Source: Ignavibacteriales bacterium
Lineage (GTDB): Bacteria > Bacteroidota > Ignavibacteria > UBA10030
Length of the DNA stretch: 49,456 nt
NCBI GenBank assembly: GCA_026390595.1
Contig: JAPLFQ010000013.1
Span: 1-49,456, forward strand
Reading direction: 5' to 3'
Shown piece after piece: positions 3,596 through 29,939 of this stretch (position 1 is the first letter of the stretch; every line of letters starts with the position of its first letter). The notes under the pieces were generated by a model. The model saw only the letters and a program-made list of their open reading frames with translations. It ran no database searches and was not told the origin of the DNA. The translations under genes were made by a program, and so were the position numbers.

Positions 3596-5842
3596 CCCCG
3601 GCGAAGTCTTCGCAGCAAGCCCCGGGAAGTACAGCTCGGCACACTCCGGGCAGAGTCCATGCGTCAACTTCGCGTCCGTGTGGTCCACAATATATTTTTC
3701 CAGTTGGTTCCAGTAACCCTTGTCGTCGCGTATTTTTTTGCAGTGAGCGCAAATAGGGACCAAGCCATCCAAAGTCCTCACATTCTCGAGAGTGGTTTTC
3801 AATTCTTTGATGATCGATTCCCGCTCCTGCTCGGCCCGCTTGTGGGCGGTGATGTCGCGTGCAACTCCTACTGTCGCGATCACCTTTCCAGACTCATCTT
3901 TCACGACCGATGTCCAGAGCTCTATTGGAAAGTCAGTCCCATCTTTCCGGCGGTTGAAGATTTCACCATACCATCCCCCGGCAAGCGTTTCTTTCAGGAT
4001 TTTGCTCCCGATCTCCGGAGAAGTCTTCCCCGAACGGACAATTACAACCGGATGGCCAACCAACTCTTCACGAGTATATCCATACGTGTGCAAGAAGGCA
4101 TCGTTCACGAAGATGATATTGTCATCAAGATCTGTAACGGACACGCAGTCTTTCGTCGAGGAGAGGGTCTGCGCCAGCAATCTGATCTCGCGTTCCGCTT
4201 TCTTGCGTCCGCTGACGTCACGGATGATACCCGTGAACATCACAGAATCATCAACCTTCACCATCGCCAGGGAGAGTTCGATCGGGAATTCACTCCTGTC
4301 GCTCCTCAATCCGACTAACTCCACAGTTTTCCCAATGACCCTCGGCTTACCCGTTTCCAGCAGCCGATGCATTCCAATCCGGTGAGCGTCCCGATAACCT
4401 TCTGGAATGATCAGATTCAGTTGCATACCCAACGCCACATCGGACGAATAGCCAAAGATTCGCTCGGCCGCTTCGTTCCAGGAAAGGATGGCCCCTTCTT
4501 CTCCGACGGTCACGATGGCGTCTGTCGCTGTCCGCACGACGGCGCGCCATCGTTCTTCACTCCTTCGCATTTGCTCTTGAGCGAGCTTCAACTCCGTGAC
4601 ATCCTGGAGCGTGGTGCGAATTCCGGTGATGCGCCCGTCGGCATCCCGCAGAATCGTATCTTCGCTCACGACATCAATCGTCGTCATGTCTTTTCGACGG
4701 TAGACGCGCTCGACGCCTTTCGCCGGCGGTTTGGTGCCGGCCAATTTAGCAAGGACCGACTGCCTTGAGGCCTCCTGGTCGTCGAGAAATTCCCACACGA
4801 AGTGTCCCAGCATTTCTTCGAGGCGATAGCCGAGCGACCGGAGTTCGGTTTGGTTGACCCGAGAAATACGCCCTTCCAGGTCCAGTTCGTGATATGCTAC
4901 CGGGGCATCGTCGAACAGCTCCTTGAAGTATTTCTCGCTTTCGATCTGTTCCTTCTCCATGCGCTTGCGTTTCGCATCGAGTTTGTTGAGCGATCGGGCG
5001 GTTCTCCACGTCAGAACCAACGCAATGGCGATGTATGCAGCCGCTGCAATGACATCGCCAAACTGATTGCCATAGAGACCGTTCCTTTCACCCTCCGTAG
5101 TGATCCAGCCAATAAGGATCGGTATGCCCACTGCAGCAGGCAACAGGCGGCGGGCCATGAAACCACCGAACCCGTCGACAATAATTTCGCCGATGATTCC
5201 ATCGTCGGGATTGAGCGATAATACTCCGATAGAGAGAAGAATGAATGTCATCGCACCATGAGCAGCCATCCGCGTGTGCACGGCGTAGCCCAGGAATTCC
5301 GGCAAATTGGGGATGTAGCCGAGCAGACCAATCAACCCCAGAACGCCCACAATCGTCGCCAGGATCTGACTGAACACAATGCCGCGGCGACTTCTCGCTT
5401 CAAGCACAAAAAAAGCAATGCCAACGCAAACAAAGCTCACGGCAGCGCTGAAAGGCATTCGCCCCCCATGCAATGCACCAGCCGCTCCTGGTAAATCCTT
5501 AAACAGAAGTTGGTCTATTCCGGCATTCCAGCCAAACGTATACTCTATTGATGTGAGTAGCCCGATCAGGATGACGAACAACGCGAGAGCCTGTGAAACG
5601 CGTCTCAGCTTCATGCTTTGCGCTGACGAGTGTAGAAGCAACATGCATGTTCCAGCGAGCATAAATGCAAGCGCCGCGTTCGCTTTCATGGAAACCATGC
5701 TTGGGTGCAGGCTCTTCAAGAGTGGAATCTCAAACATCCAGCCGACAAGAACGATTGAACCGACGACAACCGCGGCGCCACCCGAGATACGCGGAAACGC
5801 GTTGATCCACATGTTGAGGGAATTGTTCGCTTGTTGGTTCAT
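3578..5842 (-). CDS. multi-TM PAS-domain sensor without kinase, cysteine-rich C-terminus
   Basis: The 754-residue protein opens with about eight hydrophobic helices (residues 15-290), a membrane sensor module. A short coiled coil and three PAS domains follow (about 310-430, 440-560 and 565-690), each closing with a DVTEL/DVSGRK/DITAHKRAE-type linker. The protein ends with the module ICAHCKKIRDDKG...GLCPEC that is also found in the response regulator at 972-1694. No histidine kinase, GGDEF, EAL or methyl-accepting domain is visible. The protein therefore probably senses a membrane or redox cue and signals through the cysteine module or by contact with the neighbouring kinase. The start is the ATG at 5840-5842; the last few codons lie in repeat block 2. 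The upstream gap holds repeat block 3. Confidence 0.88.
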   Translation of the reverse strand: MNQQANNSLNMWINAFPRISGGAAVVVGSIVLVGWMFEIPLLKSLHPSMVSMKANAALAFMLAGTCMLLLHSSAQSMKLRRVSQALALFVILIGLLTSIEYTFGWNAGIDQLLFKDLPGAAGALHGGRMPFSAAVSFVCVGIAFFVLEARSRRGIVFSQILATIVGVLGLIGLLGYIPNLPEFLGYAVHTRMAAHGAMTFILLSIGVLSLNPDDGIIGEIIVDGFGGFMARRLLPAAVGIPILIGWITTEGERNGLYGNQFGDVIAAAAYIAIALVLTWRTARSLNKLDAKRKRMEKEQIESEKYFKELFDDAPVAYHELDLEGRISRVNQTELRSLGYRLEEMLGHFVWEFLDDQEASRQSVLAKLAGTKPPAKGVERVYRRKDMTTIDVVSEDTILRDADGRITGIRTTLQDVTELKLAQEQMRRSEERWRAVVRTATDAIVTVGEEGAILSWNEAAERIFGYSSDVALGMQLNLIIPEGYRDAHRIGMHRLLETGKPRVIGKTVELVGLRSDRSEFPIELSLAMVKVDDSVMFTGIIRDVSGRKKAEREIRLLAQTLSSTKDCVSVTDLDDNIIFVNDAFLHTYGYTREELVGHPVVIVRSGKTSPEIGSKILKETLAGGWYGEIFNRRKDGTDFPIELWTSVVKDESGKVIATVGVARDITAHKRAEQERESIIKELKTTLENVRTLDGLVPICAHCKKIRDDKGYWNQLEKYIVDHTDAKLTHGLCPECAELYFPGLAAKTSPGGSPSR

Positions 5843-28516: not shown

Positions 28517-28584
28517 TACGTCATATCGTGTATTACGCGTTCTTGCAGAAGAGCTGAAAAACAGGCGGAAAGTTGCGCAATTTC

Positions 28585-28615
28585 TTGACTTTCCGTCAAA
28601 AGCTTGATATATTTG
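28585..28615 (+). promoter_or_regulatory. promoter of the intron-split tRNA-Asn gene
   Basis: TTGACT (28585-28590), 17 bases, TATATT (28608-28613). The -10 region also reads TATATTTG, a match to the TAnnTTTG element of Bacteroidota promoters, with TTG 20 bases ahead. It points at the tRNA, with a leader of about 70 bases. Confidence 0.75.
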
Positions 28616-28620
28616 ATGAA

Positions 28621-28685
28621 CCCGGACGTGCCATTCCGGGTTGTTCTTTCAGGTGCCACCAGCCAAGTGGCATCTTGTTCTTTCA
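28621..28685 (+). other. tRNA leader with two hairpins and repeated TTGTTCTTTCA
   Basis: The first hairpin, CCCGGA/TCCGGG (28621-28640), and the second, GTGCCAC/GTGGCAT (28653-28673), are each followed by the same 11-mer TTGTTCTTTCA (28641-28651 and 28675-28685). The second ends 3 bases before the tRNA. The arrangement could be an attenuator, a processing signal, or the scar of a duplicated spacer from a tRNA array. Confidence 0.5.
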
Positions 28686-28722
28686 AATTCCGCGATAGCT
28701 CAATGGTAGAGCATGCGGCTGT

Positions 28723-29279
28723 GAGGTACGCGTGAAGCGACAAGGAGAAGCGCACATACGCAGAAAGACGGACTTACCTTATTGCGGCGGTCACAAACCG
28801 CAGAAAGAGAGTTCGTCAAAAAGCGATAGACTACAAAGGCGGCGTGTGTCAGCTTTGTGGCTACGCTCGATGCAAGGAGGCGCTTGAGTTTCACCACCGT
28901 GATGGAGAATCGAAAGACTTCGGTGTTTCATCTAAAGGTTACACTCGAAGTTGGGAGAGAGTGAAACAAGAGCTCGACAAATGCATCCTCGTTTGTGCAA
29001 ATTGTCACCGAGAGCTTCATGCAGGATTAGCAGCTTTCCCGAGTAATCGGGATTGAAAAATTGGGTGAATTCAGGGAAGCCTTCCTTTCGACAATCGAGA
29101 GATGGTAATCCTGAGCGAAGCCCCGCAAAGAGAAAAGCAATCAGTAGCGGGGAACGTGCAGAGACTAGAGGATGAGGAATCTCGCCAATAAGCCTCGACA
29201 GCGCCCGACGTCCCACCTCAGAATTCGTGAGAGGACGATGAGATAGTCCGGGCCAGATCGAAAGATCTGGAGAGTACCG
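28723..29279 (+). ncRNA. group I self-splicing intron in tRNA-Asn
   Basis: 557 nt. Conserved core elements are all visible in order: P (GTGAATTCAGGGAAGCC, about 29065-29081), Q (AATCCTGAGC, 29107-29116), R (CAGAGACTAGA, 29159-29169) and S (AGATAGTCC, 29241-29249). P4 pairs TCAGG (29071) with CCTGA (29110); P7 pairs GACTA (29163-29167) with TAGTC (29244-29248); P9 is CCAGATC-GAAA-GATCTGG (29253-29270). The 5' exon ends in U and the intron ends in G (29279), as the mechanism requires. A possible P1 pairs exon CTGT with GCAG (28760-28763). It carries an HNH ORF between the 5' end and P. The subclass was not assigned. Confidence 0.9.
28844..29056 (+). CDS. intron-encoded HNH homing endonuclease
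   Basis: From the GTG at 28844 the product is 70 residues with the zinc pair CQLCGY, the HNH core LEFHHRDGESKDFG, and the second pair in ILVCANCHRELH. The protein would cut an intronless tRNA-Asn gene and so spread the intron. The same frame stays open back to 28736 and encodes conserved-looking residues there (RRTYLIAAV, RRKRVRQKAIDYKGG), but a TGA at 28733-28735 precedes it and no ATG, GTG or TTG occurs before 28844. Either an unusual start (ATT at 28781) is used or the original start has been lost and the protein is truncated. The ORF stops just before the P element. Confidence 0.8.
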   Translation: MCQLCGYARCKEALEFHHRDGESKDFGVSSKGYTRSWERVKQELDKCILVCANCHRELHAGLAAFPSNRD

Positions 29280-29319
29280 TAACCGCAGGGTTGTAGGTTC
29301 GAGTCCTACTCGCGGAGCC

Positions 29320-29418
29320 CTTCGACTCGCCCCGTTGCTTCGGCAATGGGGCGTTCTTATTTCGCAACGGGGCTCGCTCAGGGCTTTGCCCCTCTTGCGG
29401 AAGGAGAGCGAGTCGAAG
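29320..29418. repeat. inverted repeat CTTCGACTCGC/GCGAGTCGAAG
   Basis: The arms CTTCGACTCGC (29320-29330) and GCGAGTCGAAG (29408-29418) enclose the tRNA terminator hairpin and further CGGGG/CCCCT pairs. It is the first of a string of palindromes running from the tRNA to the GIY-YIG gene; 29419-29542 contains more fragments of CGAG, TCGAGGGA and GATCGAGTGA type but no gene. Confidence 0.65.
29328..29360 (+). terminator. rho-independent terminator after tRNA-Asn
   Basis: Hairpin CGCCCCGTTGC-TTCG-GCAATGGGGCG (29328-29353, one G-T pair, UUCG loop) followed by TTCTTAT. It lies 11 bases past the end of the tRNA. Confidence 0.78.
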
Positions 29419-29542
29419 AGTCCCGAGCGACGCCGAGTGAGTCACGCCATCGTTTGGCGGGACGAAACGAGGCGGAGTCGAGGGACCGAAATCCATGGGG
29501 TTCGCTCACCGCTACTTCGTAGCCCTGATCGAGTGAATCGAA

Positions 29543-29596
29543 CCCTTCGATGCCACTTCGTGGCCCTCAGGGTTCGACCCTGAGTTCATCGAAGGG
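29543..29596. repeat. cloverleaf-like palindrome upstream of the GIY-YIG gene
   Basis: Outer arms CCCTTCGATG (29543-29552) and CATCGAAGGG (29587-29596) enclose two further hairpins: GCCAC-TTC-GTGGC (29552-29564) and CTCAGGG-TTCGA-CCCTGAG (29566-29584). The structure ends 19 bases before the GIY-YIG start codon and would hold its ribosome-binding region close to a folded RNA or a cruciform. Confidence 0.8.
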
Positions 29597-29615
29597 TCGA
29601 AGGGCCCAAGAAATC

Positions 29616-29939
29616 ATGCAATCCTGGTTCTACATCCTCCGCCTCCAATCCACACACCTCTATTGTGGTTCCACCCGTTCTCTCGAGAAGAGACTCAAAG
29701 ATCATTTTGCAGGCCGGGCCTGTCGCACGACCAAGATCGATCCTCCAATCGTCCTGGTCTACTCAGAAGAATTCCCATCATACAAGGAAGCCTTTCGACA
29801 CGAACATCAGGTGAAACATTGGAGTCGTGCGAAAAAGGAGGCGCTCATTGCTGGCCAGTTGGATCAGTTGAAGAGACTCGCGAAGAAGAGAAGACGTGAG
29901 GACAAGCGGCAGATCCTCAATACAGCGACGCCCAAGTAA
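29616..29939 (+). CDS. small GIY-YIG endonuclease-domain protein
   Basis: 107 residues. The N-terminus WFYILRL...LYCGST is the GIY-YIG signature (Y-I then Y-C-G), followed by the catalytic arginine region SLEKRLKDHFAG and the conserved glutamate in AFRHEHQVKHW. The C-terminus is strongly basic (KKRRREDKR). The length matches the single-domain family often annotated as UvrC-like or UPF0213. The ATG at 29616 was chosen; a longer frame runs through the palindrome. The TAA lies in the loop of a 3' hairpin. The palindromes on both sides and a decayed second copy of its 3' end at 40453-40719 suggest that the gene moves, but a housekeeping role cannot be excluded. Confidence 0.87.
   Translation: MQSWFYILRLQSTHLYCGSTRSLEKRLKDHFAGRACRTTKIDPPIVLVYSEEFPSYKEAFRHEHQVKHWSRAKKEALIAGQLDQLKRLAKKRRREDKRQILNTATPK

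Follow-up and report, generated by a model that had tools for sequence, protein, structure and literature searches.

A split tRNA-Asn gene and its ribozyme core

The window, by which we mean the whole 49,456-nt stretch of DNA analysed here, carries on its forward strand a tRNA-Asn(GUU) gene (28689-29317) that is interrupted between U35 and U36, inside the anticodon, by a 557-nt group I intron. The features of the locus are these:

28689-28722, + strand: tRNA-Asn 5' exon, from the acceptor to U35, ending GGCUGU; equal to the intronless tRNA-Asn of the congeners G001 and G002, with alignments stopping at 28722
28723-29279, + strand: group I intron of 557 nt, its last base a G at 29279; RF00028 match of 87.3 bits; lacking at the syntenic loci in G001 and G002
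28732-28734, + strand: GTG from which the HNH starts in frame in two congeners, but out of frame here (comparison with L050 and L051)
28736-29056, + strand: open HNH endonuclease frame within the P1 loop, lacking its start, stop at 29054-29056 (phrog_2255, E 2.7e-30; translation)
29030-29035, + strand: internal guide GCAGCU, pairing with the 5' exon GGCUGU at 28717-28722 (P1) and coding Ala-Ala of the HNH tail
29037-29052, + strand: P2 hairpin, overlapping the HNH C-terminal codons (fold; compensatory changes in 37 sequences)
29061-29067 with 29202-29208 (span 29061-29208), + strand: P3, enclosing P4-P6 (Rfam alignment, single-strand fold)
29071-29076 with 29109-29114, + strand: P4 (Rfam alignment, single-strand fold, covariation)
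29079-29081 with 29104-29106, + strand: P5 (Rfam alignment, single-strand fold, covariation)
29115-29117 with 29157-29159, extended by 29121-29126 with 29147-29152, + strand: P6 (Rfam alignment, single-strand fold, covariation)
29163-29167 with 29244-29248 (span 29163-29248), + strand: P7, the guanosine-binding helix (Rfam, fold; nearly invariant in 37 sequences)
29209-29237, + strand: P8 hairpin (Rfam alignment, fold)
29253-29270, + strand: P9 hairpin with a GAAA loop (Rfam alignment, fold, covariation)
29280-29317, + strand: tRNA-Asn 3' exon, from U36 to the discriminator G; identical in G001 and G002

Direct comparison with the two congeners fixes the ends of the intron. Both carry an intronless tRNA-Asn gene in which the joined exons of the window are present letter for letter. 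Alignment with G001 pairs 28584-28722 with 4903-5041 and 29280-29441 with 5042-5198, and alignment with G002 pairs 28687-28722 with 4966-5001 and 29280-29318 with 5002-5040, in each case with zero bases between the two blocks; the genes preceding the tRNA also align collinearly between the window and both genomes. Because the intronless gene of the congeners equals the joined exons, the limits 28723-29279 are exact and the product is tRNA-Asn(GUU); at the level of DNA comparison, exact rejoining of the exons reproduces the intronless alleles. The joined exons fold into a cloverleaf with the loop CU-GUU-AA, a U precedes the 5' splice site, and the final intron base is a G. The initial annotation had described exons that rebuild a tRNA-Asn split in its anticodon, and a 557-nt insert with a U before the 5' site and a terminal G, and the intronless alleles bear out both descriptions.

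Run without its intron option, ARAGORN reported zero tRNA in the whole window; with introns allowed it reported one split gene (28688-29320, 557-nt intron) under the label Thr(CGT). We rejected this label, the junction having been placed one base off, and the labels Thr, His and Asp given to members of the wider family likewise reflect wrong junctions: read at CUGU/UAA, these genes are tRNA-Asn.

A group I core had also been read in the insert by the initial annotation, which named a covariance-model search with the Rfam group I intron as a check. That search gave a full-length match (RF00028 at 29008-29270, 87.3 bits against a cut-off of 50, E 5.3e-21, model positions 1-253 of 253), the sole one at E <=0.001 in the 4.77-Mb genome to which the window belongs, and with the fold it places P4, P7 and the GAAA-capped P9. 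The group I identity thus stands, but the Rfam match itself starts too late for the real 5' strand of P1. A plain fold of the core recovers P2, P3, P4, P5, P6, P8 and P9; P7 is a pseudoknot and lies beyond such a fold. Among 37 cores picked from the family within a length limit, double changes preserving pairing were seen at 27 of 34 predicted pairs, and the full-length match together with this covariation excludes a chance match or another kind of intron.

The guide at 29030-29035 pairs with the GGCUGU that closes the 5' exon, with a G opposite U35, and this puts the HNH frame inside the P1 loop. A candidate guide at 28760 within the reading frame was dropped, as mini-introns of the family and the intron of another congener, G003, put the guide at 29030. 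The P1 pairs to C32-U33-G34-U35 are invariant across the family (75 introns), and at nucleotides 30 and 31 no covariation was found, nucleotide 31 being paired in 39 of 75 introns against a shuffled mean of 38.7. P1 is therefore without covariation support, four of its pairs being invariant and pairing at nucleotide 31 no more frequent than in shuffles. The guide may read only the loop common to these tRNA-Asn genes, which would let the intron fit hosts with differing anticodon stems.

Directly after the tRNA lies a repeat-rich stretch with a GIY-YIG domain gene (29550-29939; PF01541, E 1.7e-14), and similar DNA follows tRNA-Asn in G001, G003 and G004, with or without an intron. In G002 (L239, reverse strand, 4621-5040) a broken second copy of tRNA-Asn, its 5' half intact, is found about 345 nt upstream of the intact gene, with a GIY-YIG-like reading, seen by eye, between the two copies.

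The HNH frame, alleles within the genus and tRNA-Asn copy number

The HNH frame is open over 28736-29053, and its match to phrog_2255, a phage HNH family, covers residues 3-99. The Pfam HNH model gave 16.6 bits, below its 21.4 cut-off, and an NCBIfam search with the protein matched zero models. Of the HNH ORF that the initial annotation had placed in the intron, the frame itself is present and conserved, but its start, in frame in two congeners (G004 and G005, taken as loci L050 and L051), is out of frame here. A one-base length difference from these two loci within the first five codons displaces the GTG at 28732, and no ATG, GTG or TTG stands in frame until the GTG at 28844, which lies downstream of the conserved N-terminal region. 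With the last 12 codons excluded, dN/dS came to 0.028/0.323 and 0.024/0.274 (about 0.09) against the two congeners, and to 0.005/0.086 between the congeners. The low ratios to the congeners suggest that the protein was under selection until recently, and therefore that the loss of frame is recent or a sequencing artefact; it could reflect a sequencing error or be bypassed.

Such a bypass, through a non-standard start or frameshifting, would mean that the HNH protein is still made and the intron still mobile. In favour of this, the rest of the frame runs uninterrupted to its usual stop, its dN/dS is low, and a single base difference is a possible assembly error; against this, no ATG, GTG or TTG start is found before 28844, two congeners have an in-frame GTG at the same place, and G003 is without the HNH entirely. 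We therefore regard continued production of the protein as unlikely and prefer a recent loss of frame.

Comparison of six genomes of the genus showed occupied, degenerate and empty alleles of the site, the pattern by which a mobile intron would be recognised. G004 and G005 have the intron with an in-frame HNH, the window's own genome (G000) has it with the HNH out of frame, G003 has an intron from which the HNH is deleted, and G001 and G002 have an empty site. In a comparison aimed at recent horizontal transfer within the genus, divergence of the intron could not be cleanly separated from that of its flanks between congeners, and several flank alignments with distant congeners failed and were left unused.

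The initial annotation had added that, if this were the only Asn gene, viability would depend on splicing. Within the assembly (95.67% complete, 36 contigs) it is the only one found: the genome gave 43 tRNA matches, ARAGORN on these 30 loci and 13 further stretches named none of them Asn, and a tRNA-Asn pattern allowing <=2 mismatches found no further CTGTTAA loop. All isotypes other than Asn were found. Cys, the only other isotype missing from the 43 matches, was found by pattern only, a first pattern having come up empty and a second giving a Cys-type loop at a contig end. A second copy of tRNA-Asn in this genome is thus unlikely.

In 61 genomes (the window's own and 60 relatives) the intron was found in tRNA-Asn in 12, by a search with stricter filters that loses weak matches; the 11 introns besides that of the window were checked as lying in tRNA-Asn, for three solely with ARAGORN. 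None of the 12 intron-bearing genomes has an exact match to an intact tRNA-Asn, versus 38 of the 49 others (Fisher p 7.8e-7). The 11 intron-free relatives that also gave no exact match include 4 that are <90% complete, and the pattern may be too strict for the remaining 7. Of the other RF00028 matches in relatives (L221-L229), three (L221, L222 and L226, in G045, G043 and G014) are group I introns in 23S rRNA genes.

These counts bear on whether the split gene might be a dead copy, the cell being served by another tRNA-Asn missing from the assembly. The assembly, at 95.7% complete and in 36 contigs, leaves some room for this. However, both exons equal intact congener genes over the whole tRNA, and the ribozyme core is likewise intact; the assembly contains every other isotype (Cys by pattern only), and 12 of the 12 intron-bearing genomes among the 61 are without an exact intact gene, so that we consider a dead copy highly improbable. 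A functional split gene is the reading we follow: as no other tRNA-Asn was found, the intron must still splice, and decoding of asparagine codons in this cell seems to rely on a ribozyme within its sole tRNA-Asn.

Related loci in bacteria and viruses

Bacterial and archaeal genomes gave 143 HNH relatives; of the 80 best-scoring, 79 were located at tRNA-Asn. The view that an Asn case with an HNH ORF is uncommon is not borne out by these best-scoring loci. In 65 of the 80 a complete split tRNA-Asn encloses the HNH, and four have the 5' exon and HNH with no whole 3' part; three of these (L057, L107, L114) end at a contig end, and in L113 the 5' exon and HNH are kept while the 3' part of the intron is disrupted. 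At ten the HNH adjoins the tRNA rather than lying inside the intron: nine stand beside a tRNA-Asn with a mini-intron of 210-257 nt (seven upstream, L121 downstream, L087 on the other strand), and one, L067, lies directly upstream of an intact tRNA-Asn. L109 has an HNH and core remnants with no tRNA exon in view. The relatives come from many CPR (Patescibacteria) lineages, Omnitrophota, Ignavibacteriales/Ignavibacteriota, Bacteroidetes/Bacteroidota and a deltaproteobacterium.

All 75 complete split genes, the window included, read CUGU/UAA with a terminal G, a uniformity partly built in by a motif search that required CTGT and GTAA; only L057, L067, L107, L109, L113 and L114 failed that search. 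The expected guide position is occupied by GCAG in 73 of the 75, L072 and L082 being the exceptions. In 64 of 64 introns with an internal HNH and a located guide, again including the window, the HNH stop lies past the guide, and so the HNH tail and the guide share letters. A duplication of exon sequence at the HNH borders was considered and set aside: TAAC comes before the guide in 17 of 73 introns and TTAC in 14 of 73, which may reflect P10 pairing or codon context. RF00028, run on 20 of the 80 loci, matched 16 and missed L057, L061, L064 and L067.

How rare the split gene is depends on where one looks. With a strict pattern, a split tRNA of this form was found in 47 of 286 genomes from one small-genome phylum (that of G062; genome sizes mostly 0.5-1.5 Mb) and in 4 of 395 genomes of the window's own phylum, three of them plausible and the fourth (G215) unlike tRNA-Asn. 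The pattern consists of an intron end and a tRNA 3' half with U36-A-A, so that these counts leave the isotype unproven and miss variants. By this pattern, then, the split gene is rare in the window's own phylum.

The viral relatives were sampled in the same way. Among 50,697 phage records, 412 contain an HNH relative. Of 278 viral relatives, the 80 best-scoring loci gave 57 distinct HNH proteins, 39 with a tRNA <=150 nt downstream and 18 without. Of the 39, 23 precede tRNA-Asn (one on the other strand) and 16 precede other tRNAs. Asn makes up 71 of the 537 tRNAs in the 80 loci, which gives a binomial p of 3e-11 for the enrichment, a value that overstates independence since the proteins and loci are related. 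Within L131-L209, viral HNH genes of the family are seen immediately ahead of tRNAs in tRNA arrays, with Asn the commonest neighbour and Ile, Gln, Asp, Phe, Lys, Pro, Met, Arg, Gly and Cys the others.

The single viral contig found with a split tRNA-Asn, L130 (/L243), was rejected as a phage tRNA intron: dnaX and recR adjoin the split gene, followed by a large serine recombinase, terminase and portal, and it is likely a bacterial locus with a prophage alongside. Group I look-alikes recognised by motif only in viral contigs L149 and L171 were likewise rejected, as they gave no RF00028 match. A further viral contig (L185:408-444) has a borderline abiF RNA match (37.5 bits against a cut-off of 37).

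The association of the HNH with tRNA-Asn, almost constant in the bacterial loci examined, could suggest that the protein is retained as a splicing helper (maturase) and not for homing, and the sole solved-structure sequence match up to E 0.1, a weak one at E 0.015, is to a maturase reverse transcriptase. At the same site, however, there are introns with no internal HNH, namely the nine mini-introns with an outside HNH and the intron of G003, and the HNH adjoins intact tRNA-Asn in viral contigs and in L067. We consider a maturase role improbable and favour a homing endonuclease.

In a tree built from 81 HNH proteins, that of the window among them (incomplete loci scored as inside; 95 columns, few supported branches), the outside state needs 10 changes against a shuffled mean of 9.6, with at least two changes forced by well-supported branches. 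The family has two core types distinguished by a motif after P7, 64 introns being type A and 11 type B under a strict motif, which places the B-like L101 in type A; on the same tree, core type needs 9 changes against a shuffled mean of 10.5, with at least two forced. These patterns agree, weakly, with exchange between HNH genes and introns.

Proposed mechanism and comparison with known systems

In the precursor, the 5' exon end GGCUGU would pair with the guide GCAGCU; guanosine would attack after U35, and the freed U35 would then attack after the terminal G, so that splicing would rebuild the anticodon GUU. As DNA, the intron would spread when the HNH protein cuts intronless tRNA-Asn genes and repair copies the intron in. 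With the HNH out of frame, the copy in the window is probably stuck. We infer splicing in the cell, cleavage by the HNH protein and homing from sequence, and place a probability of roughly 0.88 on the reading that this is a group I intron spliced from the only tRNA-Asn, formerly spread by homing of its HNH gene into tRNA-Asn and recently left with that gene out of frame. Our best reading of the locus is accordingly a putative mobile group I intron, site-specific and now in the decay phase of its homing cycle, with an HNH lineage that appears to target tRNA-Asn and may enter and leave introns.

A broader proposal, on which we are evenly divided, is that one HNH endonuclease lineage is dedicated to tRNA-Asn: free-standing in phages and some bacteria, it would repeatedly have entered or left ORF-less introns that converged on U35/U36, lodging in the P1 loop, where its last codons serve as guide and P2. 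If true, the family would hold stages of mobile intron assembly and loss at one site in many bacterial lineages. HNH genes inside introns, beside mini-introns, beside an intact target and in phages are natural alleles with which to test how endonuclease genes join introns, and the long-standing question of invasion, collaborative homing or turnover becomes testable here at one site. They also make up a widespread site-specific intron family whose members a standard tRNA finder misses or misnames.

Much of the background to this locus is in place. As far as the available parts of these sources go, tRNA introns, endonuclease invasion and collaborative homing have been described (Hausner 2014, PMC3984707), turnover of homing endonuclease genes (HEGs) is an alternative origin of such loci (PMC10448857), and a group I intron database exists (PMC11835236). 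The parts available likewise name fMet and Ile2 introns (PMC8450103) and cyanobacterial introns in tRNA-Leu, -fMet, -Arg, -Gly and -Lys (PMC5733544). The bacterial cases described there (cyanobacterial tRNA-Leu; tRNA-fMet of Synechocystis and Gloeobacter; tRNA-Ile2 of Acidovorax and Burkholderia) resemble the present one in having a ribozyme in the anticodon loop and a sporadic distribution (PMC8450103, PMC5733544). Here, by contrast, the host is tRNA-Asn(GUU), the site is U35/U36 and an HNH gene sits in the P1 loop. The endonuclease of the tRNA-fMet intron probably belongs to a different family from this HNH.

Group I introns are also on record from lineages where our family is found. Lui et al. 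2021 (PMC8172020) mention them in the tRNAs of circularised genomes, most of them CPR, the available portion of that paper giving no isotype, site, tRNA-intron endonuclease or family. They are common in CPR rRNA genes as well (PMC11270868), but there the hosts are rRNAs and the enzymes LAGLIDADG, and a term search of the text available found no tRNA and no HNH.

A further parallel may be collaborative homing in phages, in which a free-standing endonuclease targets the insertion site of an intron and where, in the portions of the sources at hand, a free-standing HNH beside a target gene is likewise combined with an ORF-less intron at the same target (PMC3984707, PMC10448857); the present loci differ in lying on bacterial chromosomes at a tRNA gene, and in combining inside and outside states within one HNH family. 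Among the titles and abstract openings listed from the open-licence literature, with subscription journals mostly outside it, none describes a group I intron in a bacterial tRNA-Asn. The proposed mechanism is an ordinary one, well supported, at a site we did not find described; what is new is how broad the family is and that its HNH genes occur both inside and outside introns.
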